A stretch of DNA of 64,000 nucleotides from Bacteroidota bacterium (lineage in GTDB: Bacteria > Bacteroidota > Ignavibacteria > Ignavibacteriales > Ignavibacteriaceae), in the NCBI GenBank assembly GCA_021815365.1, contig JAKAGZ010000010.1, forward strand, positions 1 through 64,000, read 5' to 3'. The translations under genes were made by a program, and so were the position numbers. Below the pieces are notes generated by a model that saw nothing but the letters and a program-made list of their open reading frames with translations, did no database searches and was not told the origin of the DNA. Shown here in pieces: positions 53,186-62,443 of this stretch (the first letter of the stretch is position 1; each line of letters begins with the position of its first letter).

Positions 53186-54307
53186 CTATCCAAGGAAATT
53201 TTTTATCATCCTTTCCATTTGTTCAAACTCGATAAGAAAGGCATCGTGACCGTGCTGCGAAATTACTTCCTCATATTTTGATCGTGAAATTAATTTTGAA
53301 ATTTCCTTTTGTTCCCTTGCAGGATAAAGTATGTCCGTTGATATCCCAATATTCAGAACATCAGCCTTAATCGCACCCAAAGCTTCTTCAACGCCGCCGC
53401 GGTTAAAACCGACATCGTGGAGGTCCATTGCATAAGTCAGGTAAAGATAGCTTGCAGCATCGAAACGATCTACAAGCTTTTTCCCCTGGTGATCAAGATA
53501 GTTTTCAATTTCAAATTTGTTGCGAAGGTCGAAAGTGTTTTCATTGCTTCTTTTTCTTGCAAACTTTTGTTCAAAAGATATATCGCTCCTGTAGCTGATC
53601 ATTGCAATCTCCCTTGCAAGTGATAGCCCGTCCTCATTTAATTCAAAGCTGCTGCTGCCATTTTTCTTGTAACCATTTAAGAGCGCAGCTCGCTGAACTT
53701 TATTTAAAGCAACATTCCACGCAGAATGTTTTGCAGACGCAGCTATTGGTATTAAAGTTTCTACAAAATCCGGGTACATAATTCCCCATTCAAGAACCTG
53801 CATACCTCCCAGAGAACCACCCGCAACTGTAACAAGTTTATTCACTCCAAGTGAGTTTAACAATTTATGCTGAACTTTTACCATATCACGTACCGTAACA
53901 AGTGGAAACTCAAGATTATATTTTTCATTTGTCAAAGGATTTATGTCAGAGGGACCAGTTGTGCCGTAGCAGCTTCCCAGTATATTTGAACAGACAATAA
54001 AATATTTTTCAGTATCAAAGGCTTTGCCCGGTCCGATCAACCCATCCCACCAGCCGGTCTTACCGAGAAACATATTATTATACTTAAATAAAAACTCGTT
54101 CTCCTTCGAGCTTTCCGTTTCATCTTCAGAAACAATACCTGCTGCGTGAGCATTACCCGTTAAAGCATGGCATATAAGGATAGAATTTGTTCCTTCATCA
54201 TTCAATCTGCCGTAGGTTTGATATGCGACCCTGACAGGGAATAATAATTCTCCCGACTGCAGCTTTAACGGGTTTTGTTCGTTATAAAGTTCTTTAAAAT
54301 TTGTCAT
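53186..54307 (-). CDS. metX: Homoserine O-acetyltransferase
   Basis: 373 residues. Alpha/beta-hydrolase fold with [16 protein letters not shown], the nucleophile elbow [13 protein letters not shown] (Ser), an Asp in STDILYP and His in GHDAFLIEF. Acetylates (or in some members succinylates) homoserine with acyl-CoA. Third gene of metY-osmC-metX, 21 bases after osmC, all downstream of a SAM-I riboswitch. Convergent with hepT, 7 bases apart. Confidence 0.95.
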
Positions 54308-54328: not shown

Positions 54329-54883
54329 CTAAGCTAAAACTTCTTTCCTTTTATTTTTATTAACAGAATTAACAGTACCAGTTATTTTCACCTTTCCTTC
54401 AACAGGTATTGGTCTCGATAAAATATCAAGCACGGGGCAATTCTTCTCTACTGTGTCAATCAACTTTTTGATCTCCGATTCTTCTGCCGGACTTTTAATG
54501 TAAGTTTCATAAGAAACCTTGCCGAAACCCGGCTTGACATCAGGATCCAGACCGAACAGCCCCTTTAAATCGAGTGTGCCTTTCACATTAACTTTAACGG
54601 ATTCGAGGGGAATTCCGAGAACAGAGGAATAAGCCCCGTAAAGAATTTCCTGGCAGGAACCCAGCGCTGCAAGAATGTATTCTACCGGGTTCGGAGCCGT
54701 ATTATCTCCTCCAAGAGCCTCCGGCTCATCAATATCAAAATTGAAATCCCTCACCTTTGCACGGCACTTTACATTTCCAACAAGTTCTGTCTCAGATGTA
54801 AAAAATGTTTTGGATATTTCCGGCTTCTTCCGGATTTCTTCGATCTTTTGCAGAAGAATCTGCCTTAAATTATTTGATGACAT
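54329..54883 (-). CDS. OsmC/Ohr family protein
   Basis: 184 residues. The OsmC core has NPVEYILAALGSCQEILYGAYSSVLGIPLESVKVNVKG with the resolving-type Cys in GSCQE and a second Cys in NCPVLDIL. These two Cys define peroxide reductases of the OsmC/Ohr type. Between metY and metX, so its expression probably follows methionine demand; some family members in sulfur operons act on sulfur compounds, which is inference here. Confidence 0.93.
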   Translation of the reverse strand: MSSNNLRQILLQKIEEIRKKPEISKTFFTSETELVGNVKCRAKVRDFNFDIDEPEALGGDNTAPNPVEYILAALGSCQEILYGAYSSVLGIPLESVKVNVKGTLDLKGLFGLDPDVKPGFGKVSYETYIKSPAEESEIKKLIDTVEKNCPVLDILSRPIPVEGKVKITGTVNSVNKNKRKEVLA

Positions 54884-54962: not shown

Positions 54963-56312
<1,350 letters not shown>

Positions 56313-56393: not shown

Positions 56394-56565
56394 AAAACCT
56401 CCCCGGAAAGATCACCGAAGAGGTTTTGTTAAACTTCTTCTCTCATCTTTCCCGGATAAAAATGAATCTGCACCGGGCAGGAGTTAGCACCTAAGACCCC
56501 CGATCGTACCGGGGCGGTTGCTAAGGTTTCACAGGGCCTGTTCCCTCAACCTTTCTCGATAAGAG
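56394..56565 (-). promoter_or_regulatory. SAM-I riboswitch (S-box leader) of metY-osmC-metX
   Basis: On the minus strand the aptamer runs from CTCTTATC (56565-56558) to its P1 partner GATGAGAG (56447-56440). It contains the conserved core GAGAAAGGTTGAGGGA, AGGCCCTGTGAAACC and TTAGCAACC. The platform is a terminator with AAAACCTC (56427-56420) pairing GAGGTTTT (56401-56394). The P1 3' strand and GAAGAAG can pair with CCTCTTC to form an antiterminator. SAM binding should shut off metY, osmC and metX. Confidence 0.95.
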
Positions 56566-56634: not shown

Positions 56635-56733
56635 TCCTTTAAATTATAGTGTCCTTCCGTATACCTTATGACACATCATACAGAAACAACACATGCATTT
56701 ATTATTTTTTAAATTCATCATTCTTTAAGGCTG

Positions 56734-57846
56734 CTAGTTTAGATAATTCGAAACTTTAATTAAATCCGATAGAACTCCTGAAGCTGTTACTTCAGTTCCG
56801 GCACCCGGTCCTTTAATTACAAGAGGCTGAGGGTTGTAATATTTTGTCATTATAGAAAAAATATTATCGCTGCCCGACAGATTATAAAAAGGGTGTGCGA
56901 CATCAATTTCTTCCAGACCGGCTTTAATTTTTTCGCTGCTCAGAGTCGCGACATATTTAAGCGTCTTTCCTTTTTTTACAGCTTCATTTCTTCTGGCTTC
57001 AAAGTGTTTATCAAGTTTTTTTAATTCTTCAAAAAGATTTTTCTCTGCATTTTCAGAGTTGTTCATTGGAGGGACCAGACTTTCCACTTCAATATCATTC
57101 AGTTCAATTTTAAAACCTATTTCTCTTGAAAGTACCAATAGCTTTCTTGCAACGTCAAGCCCATTGAGGTCTTCCCTTGGATCCGGCTCAGTATATCCTC
57201 TTTCTTTTGCCTCCCTGACAATTTCGCTGAAAGGTTTTCCATTTGTATACGAATTAAAAATATAACTCAGTGAGCCGGAAAGAATTCCTTCAATTTTTAT
57301 TATCTCATCACCGCTGTATATAAGGTCTTTTATCGTACCTATCACAGGAAGAGCAGCACCAACATTTGTTTCATACAAAAATCTGACCTTCCTTTTCTTT
57401 GCGGTTTTTCTCAATTCATTATAAAATTCGTAATCCTGAGTATTTGCTCTTTTATTCGGGGTCACAATTGAGATTCCGTTTTCCAGTATCGATCTGTATT
57501 TTTTTACAACTTCATCACTTGCCGTACAATCTATAAAAACTTTATTAGGAAGAGGTAGTGAAGACATTCTGTTTATAAACGCATCAAGATTTGTCTTATC
57601 GGGTGAGCTTAACAGATTTTCTTTCCATTTTGCCAATTGGATACCACTGGAATCAAACAGCATTTTTTTAGTATTCGCCAGAGCAATTATCTTAATTTCA
57701 GTTGAATCCTTTTCTTTCAGCATTGCGAGCTGCCTGTTGATCTGGTTCAGCAGGGTGCTGCCCACGTGCCCGGGACCAACTAAAAACACATTCAACTGTT
57801 TGTATAGATCAGGAAATATTTTATCTGATTCGTCCGCTGCTTTCAT
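56734..57846 (-). CDS. hom: Homoserine dehydrogenase
   Basis: 370 residues. Rossmann NAD(P)-binding start VFLVGPGHVGSTLL, IDCTASDEVVKKY, and the catalytic domain LYETNVGAALPVI, EGILSGSLSYIFN and REAKERGYTEPDPREDLNGLDVARKL with the conserved Asp and Lys. It corresponds to the dehydrogenase half of fused aspartokinase-homoserine dehydrogenases and lacks the kinase and an ACT domain. It reduces aspartate semialdehyde to homoserine, the branch point of Thr and Met. A leader peptide and terminator hairpin lie upstream. Confidence 0.95.
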   Translation of the reverse strand: MKAADESDKIFPDLYKQLNVFLVGPGHVGSTLLNQINRQLAMLKEKDSTEIKIIALANTKKMLFDSSGIQLAKWKENLLSSPDKTNLDAFINRMSSLPLPNKVFIDCTASDEVVKKYRSILENGISIVTPNKRANTQDYEFYNELRKTAKKRKVRFLYETNVGAALPVIGTIKDLIYSGDEIIKIEGILSGSLSYIFNSYTNGKPFSEIVREAKERGYTEPDPREDLNGLDVARKLLVLSREIGFKIELNDIEVESLVPPMNNSENAEKNLFEELKKLDKHFEARRNEAVKKGKTLKYVATLSSEKIKAGLEEIDVAHPFYNLSGSDNIFSIMTKYYNPQPLVIKGPGAGTEVTASGVLSDLIKVSNYLN

Positions 57847-57890
57847 ATTCTGCTCACTTTCAATTTATTTGATTTTCATTTAGTGCAAAA

Positions 57891-57921
57891 AAAAACCGGC
57901 TTCGAGGTGAAGCCGGTTTTT
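57891..57921 (-). terminator. Attenuator-type terminator upstream of homoserine dehydrogenase
   Basis: A perfect 13-bp stem (57891-57903 with 57909-57921) with a 5-base loop, followed on the minus strand by a run of T. It lies 45 bases upstream of the hom start and 27 bases after the leader peptide stop codon, so it can only act as an attenuator for hom (or as a stop for the leader RNA). Confidence 0.85.
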
Positions 57922-57947
57922 ATATTAAATTAAATTTTATTTATTAC

Positions 57948-58046
57948 CTATAACCCAGCGTTCACCTCCATAGCGGGAGTTGTCATTAGCATACACATTG
58001 TAGTGGTAGTGCACATTGGGTTATATGTAAATACTTGATTGTTCAT
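57948..58046 (-). CDS. Candidate leader peptide rich in Thr and Met codons
   Basis: A 32-residue frame starting ATG at 58046 (or a 22-residue one from ATG at 58016). The part CTTTTMCMLMTTPAM packs six Thr, four Met and two Cys codons into 15 positions. A 9-bp inverted repeat (57949-57957 with 58017-58025) encloses this stretch, and a strong terminator follows, ahead of the homoserine dehydrogenase gene. This is the layout of a transcription attenuator. No Shine-Dalgarno sequence is seen; the base before each start is A-rich, as often in this phylum. Confidence 0.75.
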   Translation of the reverse strand: MNNQVFTYNPMCTTTTMCMLMTTPAMEVNAGL

Positions 58047-58121
58047 TTTTAACTGAGGATAAACATAAGATATATTGACCTGTTTGTCAATAGCTAAATC
58101 AGGATTAATAAAAAAAATTTT

Positions 58122-58700
58122 TTAGCTCAATTTTCCAAGGGCTTTCTTAATTAGCTCTTCAAGAGAACTGGCTGGTTCCGCGTTAAATACTTCCCTGACG
58201 GCTTTTTCCGCAAATTTATAATTGTAACCCAGAGTAGTTAAAGCAGACACGGCTTCTTTTTTTATTCCTGAAGAAATGTCCATTTCACCTTCAACTGAAA
58301 CATCTGCAACCTTTGTCCTTAACTCGAGCACCAGCCTTTCTGCTGTTTTTCTGCCTATGCCCGGAACTGAAATAATCCTCGAAATATCTCCTGAAGTAAT
58401 CGCACTCGTTAAATCAACCACCTGTATGCCGGATAAAATGCTCAACGCTAATTTCGGACCTATCCCGTTTACTGAAATTAACAGCTCGAACATTTCTTTT
58501 TCAGACTCGGTGTAAAATCCATACAACGAAATTGAATCTTCCTTTACATGCGTATAGATAAAAAGAGAAGCCGAAGATTTGTCGCTTATTTTTTCAAATG
58601 TATTTATTGAAATATTGACTACATAGCCGACCCCGTTTACATCCAAAATTATTTTGGTCGGTTTTGAAGAAATTATTTTCCCGGACAGGTAGCCAATCAT
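58122..58700 (-). CDS. ruvA: Holliday junction branch migration protein RuvA
   Basis: 192 residues. OB-fold domain (MIGYLSGKIISSKPTKIILDVNGVGYVVNI), helix-hairpin-helix domain (ELLISVNGIGPKLALSIL and ISVPGIGRKTAERLVLEL), and a C-terminal domain III (LTTLGYNYKFAEKAVREV) that contacts RuvB. Third gene of yebC-ruvC-ruvA, separated from ruvC by a 204-base spacer with palindromes. Confidence 0.96.
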   Translation of the reverse strand: MIGYLSGKIISSKPTKIILDVNGVGYVVNISINTFEKISDKSSASLFIYTHVKEDSISLYGFYTESEKEMFELLISVNGIGPKLALSILSGIQVVDLTSAITSGDISRIISVPGIGRKTAERLVLELRTKVADVSVEGEMDISSGIKKEAVSALTTLGYNYKFAEKAVREVFNAEPASSLEELIKKALGKLS

Positions 58701-61963: not shown

Positions 61964-61997
61964 AAAATTATCCACCGATAATTATAAGAACAAAACA

Positions 61998-62443
61998 AAC
62001 AGCCCGAGCCTGTAAGCCGAATTTTGTAACCCGACAAATCGGGCAGCAATTATTTGTCTTGTCCCGATGTTACCATCGGGATCCAGCGGTCTACCCGAAG
62101 ACCCTGTTAAACCTTTCGGCAAACACAAAGCGAACAACTTTGATCCGGTGGCTGCCGGAAAGATCTTCTTATTTGACCTTGCTTCGAGTGGGGTTTGCCT
62201 TGTCCCGATTTTAACATCGGGATCCCTTTCGGGACCGGTGATGTTACCATCACCGCGGTAGGCTCTTACCCTGCCATTTCACCTTTATCCGGCGTCTGCC
62301 GGAAAGTTTATTTTCTGTGGCACTTTCCCGTGCTATAAGATTTCTCCTATTGCAGCCGGGCGTTACCCGGCACTCTGTTCTATGAAGTTCGGACTTTCCT
62401 CCCACCGACTGAGTCGGAGAGCAATTGCCCGGATCGGGCTGTC
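61998..62443 (-). ncRNA. rnpB: RNase P RNA, bacterial type A
   Basis: On the minus strand the 5' end contains GGTGGGAGGAAAGTCCG, the conserved CR-I region, and the 3' half contains the CR-V partner ending ACAAAATTCGGCTTACAG. ACAGCCCGA at the start pairs with TCGGGCTGT at the end to form P1. Length about 446. Several hairpins have GUAA tetraloops. A hairpin unit of about 25 bases occurs twice (near 62061-62086 and 62200-62225). Confidence 0.93.

Follow-up and report, generated by a model that had tools for sequence, protein, structure and literature searches.

The whole 64,000-nucleotide stretch of DNA analyzed here, which we call the window, carries on its minus strand a homoserine dehydrogenase gene (hom) preceded by a short open reading frame (ORF) and followed by methionine genes. 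From upstream to downstream, the region contains the following features.

ends at 58122, minus strand: ruvA, upstream of the hom leader
57948..58046, minus strand: leader ORF MNNQVFTYNPMCTTTTMCMLMTTPAMEVNAGL, then stop; 32 codons, upstream of hom
56734..57846, minus strand: hom, monofunctional homoserine dehydrogenase, 370 aa
56440..56565, minus strand: SAM-I riboswitch (S box) between hom and metY (78.3 bits, cut-off 44.4), with its own terminator at 56427..56394
54963..56300, minus strand: metY, O-acetylhomoserine sulfhydrylase (TIGR01326, 693 bits)
54329..54883, minus strand: OsmC-like gene, between metY and metX
53186..54307, minus strand: metX, homoserine O-acetyltransferase

Homoserine, which hom makes, is the last common precursor of threonine and methionine and the branch point between them. 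This hom is the only copy found in the window's genome, which is 99.95% complete. The thrB-thrC genes are placed apart from it, behind a Thr leader, and the two aspartate kinases lie in a separate cluster with genes that, from our own reading of their sequences, we take to be dapA/dapB-like. By family profiles, the window hom most resembles the C-terminal half of bifunctional aspartate kinase/homoserine dehydrogenase I; therefore, it was probably derived from such a gene. Because this single hom serves both threonine and methionine, a sensor that responds to shortage of either amino acid (an OR sensor) would fit the pathway.

Two other elements were seen on the same strand. A second candidate leader, MNLKNNKCMCCFCMMCHKVYGRTL, with five Cys and three Met codons, lies at 56718..56644 between hom and the SAM riboswitch and is followed by a GCCCTTC/GAAGGGC hairpin without a T-tract. 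The matching hairpin is a good terminator in several relatives, so the window copy may have decayed. An ordinary bacterial RNase P RNA of class A occupies 61997..62440.

The most distinctive part of the leader ORF is a block of control codons.

57978..58016, minus strand: control-codon block MCTTTTMCMLMTT, codons 11-23, reading Met Cys Thr Thr Thr Thr Met Cys Met Leu Met Thr Thr

Twelve of these 13 consecutive codons specify threonine (six), methionine (four), or cysteine (two). A reading made earlier from the sequence alone (the sequence-only reading) had counted these codons within 15 positions; that count is exact, and the core is in fact 13 codons long. When ORFs were scored by their Thr, Met, and Cys codons per 15 codons, the hom leader scored 12, compared with 8 for the runner-up among 864 short ORFs in the window and a maximum of 8 among 77,845 ORFs from 60 simulated first-order Markov windows. 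As background, Thr makes up 5.0% of codons in the longer ORFs of the window, Met 1.9%, and Cys 0.7%. A short ORF rich in end-product codons is thus found between a promoter-like element and the structural gene, as in an attenuator, and around it lie the following elements.

58062..58090, minus strand: promoter-like element TTGACA-17-TATGTT(TATCC), 10/12 match to consensus, ending ~16 nt before the leader ATG
58017..58025, minus strand: segment 1, 5' arm TATAACCCA of the anti-antiterminator stem, at codons 8-10
57954..57971, minus strand: segment 2, 5' arm AUGGAGGUGAACGCUGGG of the antiterminator, in the last leader codons
57949..57957, minus strand: 3' arm TGGGTTATA of the 1:2 stem, which overlaps the leader stop codon
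57904..57916, minus strand: segment 3, 3' arm CCGGCUUCACCUC of the antiterminator, doubling as terminator 5' arm and loop
57891..57921, minus strand: intrinsic terminator (segments 3:4), AAAAACCGGCTTC-ACCTC-GAAGCCGGTTTTT, a perfect 13-bp stem with a 5-nt loop
57887-57895, minus strand: terminator T-tract

The sequence-only reading had described a 9-bp inverted repeat enclosing the short frame, followed by a perfect 13-bp terminator with a T-run. Both are present on the minus strand: the repeat pairs TATAACCCA (58025..58017) with TGGGTTATA (57957..57949) and flanks the control codons, and the terminator with its T-tract spans 57921..57887. That reading missed the promoter-like element, the antiterminator, and the downstream SAM-I riboswitch with metY-osmC-metX. 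The antiterminator can form between the partner stretches GAGGTGAA and TTCACCTC; once formed, it precludes the terminator, and the same ORF-end segment is held in an alternative stem by the 9-bp repeat. The 1:2, 2:3, and 3:4 pairings are thus all present. An intrinsic terminator accordingly stands between the leader ORF and hom, with an antiterminator overlapping the end of the ORF.

These pairings are stronger than expected by chance. The fold of the 173-nt leader RNA has a z-score of -4.4, and 0/200 shuffled sequences were equally stable. The duplex between segments 1 and 2 was computed at -25.7 kcal/mol (p = 0.01 versus shuffles), and that between segment 2 and the terminator 5' arm plus loop at -23.1 kcal/mol, which 0/300 shuffles matched. 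The window antiterminator pairing is also specific, as none of 25 foreign arms paired as well. Initiation of hom transcription past the terminator would have spoken against attenuation; the promoter-like element lies upstream of the leader, and no promoter match was found in the ~40 nt from the T-tract to hom. We considered whether the terminator simply closes transcription of ruvA, which lies upstream on the same strand and ends at 58122, with the ORF there by chance. Composition and pairing beyond chance already contradict such a reading, as do similar promoters, leaders, and terminators before thrA, thrB, metY, and cysK (described below), and we give it almost no credence.

Based on these observations, we consider it highly likely that hom is controlled by ribosome-mediated transcription attenuation through a leader with mixed control codons, such that shortage of Thr, Met, or Cys would de-repress hom; the Cys codons are counted among the control codons too, with an uncertain role. 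We infer that the leader is translated, that ribosomes stall in it, that transcription terminates, and that each amino acid elicits a response. Transcription would begin just upstream of the leader ORF, with a ribosome trailing the polymerase. With Thr-, Met-, and Cys-tRNAs charged, this ribosome would reach the stop codon and cover segment 2, allowing the 3:4 terminator to form and ending transcription before hom. Under shortage of threonine, methionine, or (less surely) cysteine, the ribosome would stall within codons 11-22 and mask segment 1, and segment 2 would then pair with segment 3 as the antiterminator, permitting transcription of hom. Without translation, the 1:2 and 3:4 stems would both form, making termination the default.

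We modeled stalling by moving a ribosome along the leader with an assumed footprint of 11 nt past the A-site codon, a value on which the outcome depends. In the full-length equilibrium fold of the window leader, stalls at codons 9-22 gave a terminator probability of at most 0.10, whereas stalls from codon 23 to the stop codon gave 0.89-0.96, similar to the ribosome-free RNA (0.96). The boundary coincides with the end of the control-codon block. By calculation, then, stalls at the control codons of the window leader shift the fold to the antiterminator. For the examples of G080 (a relative whose hom is described next), thrB, and thrA, the full-length equilibrium fold keeps the terminator at every stall; there, the switch appears only in a co-transcriptional calculation, before the 3' arm is made.

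The sequence-only reading had proposed relatives as a check, and its claim that a leader reading Thr and Met attenuates hom is the best explanation of what we found, with conservation in one relative in its favor. The only close orthologue of hom, in genome G080, is 72% identical, monofunctional, and likewise downstream of ruvC and ruvA. Its leader, MNYKVLTYSPMCTMMCMAMTTLIPKVISGL, contains four Thr, five Met, and two Cys codons, and promoter and terminator are kept. Relative to the window leader, two codons are deleted and synonymous changes (TGC/TGT and ACT/ACA) have occurred, so the short frame and its Thr/Met/Cys codons persist despite the deletion. The number of Thr codons is four, versus seven in the window. 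Genome G080 also has a thrA-thrB-thrC set, and the lower number is in keeping with relief from threonine duty, in what is a single case. Three further hom-like genes with short frames (G123, G122, and G159) have no such leader in the flanking DNA examined. A search of genome contigs for hom found one locus only, which carries a fused thrA.

We next describe the wider RNA family, represented by a covariance model (R1) of leader tail and terminator built from 26 sequences, the window included. In the window's genome, R1 gives just two strong matches: hom at 62.8 bits and thrB-thrC at 77.4 bits. The hom score is well above those of ordinary terminators (~45 bits or less), although it is not independent, as the window is part of the model. 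Matches above 50 bits occur upstream of amino acid genes only, as far as neighborhoods could be read, and the weak matches (~45 bits or less) inspected at 24 loci are ordinary terminators without control-codon leaders. At E <= 1e-6, matches are confined to two of the three families of the order, and among 391 sampled genomes of the class, none outside the order yielded one. In two families of the order, a fused aspartate kinase/homoserine dehydrogenase gene (thrA) lies behind a Thr-rich leader with the same type of promoter and the same terminator core.

Several features of the scaffold are shared across this family. A TTGAC-N17-21-TAnnTT[TA] promoter precedes 24/28 family leaders, compared with 0.4% in shuffles, and the relatives' elements have in common the terminator core CCG[AG]C (scaffold core, CCG[AG]CTTC). 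All 26 elements examined have a pairing of the leader tail to the 5' arm of the terminator, with shuffle p <= 0.023 in 24 of them; the 1:2 stem is weaker or non-significant in many relatives. Compensatory changes are seen in the antiterminator, from C-G to T-A at arm position 5 and from T-A to G-C at arm position 10. We counted this covariation on duplex predictions because the MAFFT alignment (A2) is out of register for the antiterminator arms. The case for an attenuator is one of sequence, composition, conservation, alternative base pairing, and codons that track the downstream gene across the RNA family.

The last of these is apparent when leaders before different genes are compared. In the window's own genome, the thrB-thrC leader MNKNKSSYRALPTPSVTTPTTPTFMSGG (L118, G000:C93, 2291-2445, minus strand), which is followed by a terminator, has six Thr codons, no Cys codon, and one Met codon outside the Thr block. 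The scaffold also occurs with Met codons upstream of metY in genomes G040 and G042; a scan of the G040 metY locus at the gathering cut-off gave no SAM riboswitch. In genome G076, a cysK leader with five Cys codons, MKTKISTYNSCCQIICMVCLTCILEVNEGL (L155:1666-1810), has the same scaffold and is almost the same as the window hom leader in its tail and terminator (GGAGGTGAACG..GGGTTATAG, CCGGCTTCACCTCGAAGCCGG). On average, thrA leaders hold 7.1 Thr and 2.0 Met codons; hom leaders hold 5.5 Thr, 5.0 Met, and 2.0 Cys; metY leaders hold 5.5 Met and 0.5 Thr; and the cysK leader holds 5 Cys. These counts are not phylogenetically independent, because one event each probably accounts for the hom pair and for the metY pair. 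Since codon content matches the downstream gene (thrA, thrB, hom, metY, or cysK), the control codons track the product of that gene. We think it probable that one attenuator scaffold was copied within the order with mainly its codons exchanged, giving leaders keyed to Thr at thrA/thrB, to Met at metY, to Cys at cysK, and to Thr, Met, and Cys together at hom, where the leader would act as an OR sensor of both products, with methionine as a control codon. As the RNA family is mostly the Thr leader of fused thrA, the distinctive part is the re-keying to Thr, Met, and Cys, not the Thr leader itself.

Further leaders were seen upstream of metY in relatives. At L061, L062, L064, and L069 (and partly at L066, L070, and L072), metY has a Met/Cys-codon leader (e.g., NMAMCICCMMM) with its own terminator, AAGCCCTTC..GAAGGGCTT, after which comes a SAM-I riboswitch. 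This tandem control would read Met/Cys-tRNA charging and SAM in series. At L078, L082, and L087, two tandem Met-rich leader ORFs precede metY. In L078 and L082, a terminator follows the first of them, and a scan of L078 at the gathering cut-off gave no SAM riboswitch.

The codon counts bear on whether all three amino acids are read at hom. The scaffold serves mostly as the Thr leader of thrA, thrA leaders themselves hold one to four Met codons, and the window core has six Thr codons, all of which would be expected of an ordinary threonine attenuator that responds to Thr starvation alone and merely tolerates its Met and Cys codons. Such an attenuator would leave unexplained that Met makes up ~17% of codons in the two hom leaders versus 1.9% in the window's longer ORFs, that Met outnumbers Thr in the orthologue, that the thrB leader of the same genome lacks Cys and keeps its one Met outside the Thr block, and that Thr codons are few in the versions before metY and cysK, where Met or Cys codons prevail. 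Each hom leader, with five Met codons, exceeds all 22 thrA leaders; pooled, the enrichment over thrA leaders is borderline (Fisher p = 0.054), with only two hom leaders available. Taken together, we regard control by threonine alone as quite unlikely.

The converse possibility is a sensor of the sulfur amino acids Met and Cys, inherited from a cysK or met-type leader, in which the Thr codons are remnants. Near identity of the tail and terminator to the G076 cysK leader, the position of hom in a met cluster, and the excess of Met over Thr in the orthologue are consistent with this origin. Yet six Thr codons, four of them consecutive, are left in the window core, and the sole hom of the genome must supply threonine as well, so we judge a purely sulfur-directed sensor unlikely. 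Mixed control by Thr and Met thus remains our preferred reading. Its weakest steps are the separate effects of the Met and Cys codons and the small number of hom leaders (two), and the reading is computational throughout.

We also considered whether the leader acts other than by codon starvation, as a nascent-chain arrest peptide or as an upstream ORF that allows reinitiation. It has been proposed that leader genes raise downstream expression through ribosome reinitiation (PMC4833913). In this family, however, peptides differ widely in sequence from leader to leader, whereas codon type and RNA pairing are conserved, and a terminator lies between leader and hom, which makes arrest or reinitiation very improbable.

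Known RNA families do not account for the element. Rfam Thr_leader (RF00506) reaches 24.3 bits at the hom leader against a cut-off of 55, and the match covers the terminator only. No Rfam cis-regulatory RNA, including the SAM riboswitch RF00162, matches 57850..58100 at the gathering cut-off, and a permissive E-value scan of the leader gave none that fits; the sole SAM match is the one at 56440..56565 before metY. Ribosome-mediated attenuation by more than one amino acid is of a classical kind, exemplified by the enteric thr and ilv operons, and enteric thrL uses Thr and Ile codons. The textbook regulators of methionine genes are MetJ, S-box/SAM riboswitches, and T-boxes. Like thrL/RF00506, the hom leader has an ORF of regulatory codons and mutually exclusive antiterminator and terminator, lies upstream of homoserine dehydrogenase, and would read more than one amino acid; unlike thrL, it uses Thr, Met, and Cys codons, precedes a monofunctional hom in a met cluster instead of thrABC, and has no detectable homology to it. 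The SAM-I riboswitch (RF00162), one of which lies downstream before metY, likewise exerts cis RNA control over methionine genes; however, it senses S-adenosylmethionine directly, without a leader peptide, and the hom leader has no S-box match.

Actinobacterial cys/cbs operons have leader ORFs with runs of Cys codons before sulfur amino acid genes, and in mycobacterial cys upstream regions no conserved hairpin fit as a terminator was found (PMC1262725). In contrast, the elements described here have a terminator and an antiterminator, and combine Cys with Met and Thr. Our literature search for Met-codon leader peptides, Bacteroidetes attenuators, and thrA leaders returned nothing closer. Met control codons, the Thr-Met combination, and the re-keyed scaffold did not turn up in Rfam or the papers searched; a 2010 survey by Lopatovskaya et al. 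(cited in PMC4833913) lay beyond this search and might predict a Thr leader in the phylum. As far as the searched literature shows, methionine as a control codon, the Thr-Met(-Cys) combination at hom, and gene-by-gene re-keying seem to be new.

Within one genome, the branch point would thus be governed by a mixed Thr/Met/Cys leader at hom, a Thr leader on the threonine branch, and a Cys/Met-rich ORF with a SAM riboswitch at metY. Across genomes, the family amounts to a natural codon-swap series on a similar RNA scaffold, suited to tests of control-codon nature and attenuator evolution. A close likeness to the hom leader is found in the order's own thrA/thrB leaders (R1), which share its promoter, ORF, antiterminator between tail and terminator arm, and CCG[AG]CTTC core; those leaders are dominated by Thr (for thrA, 7.1 Thr and 2.0 Met), whereas five Met and two Cys codons stand in the leader of hom.
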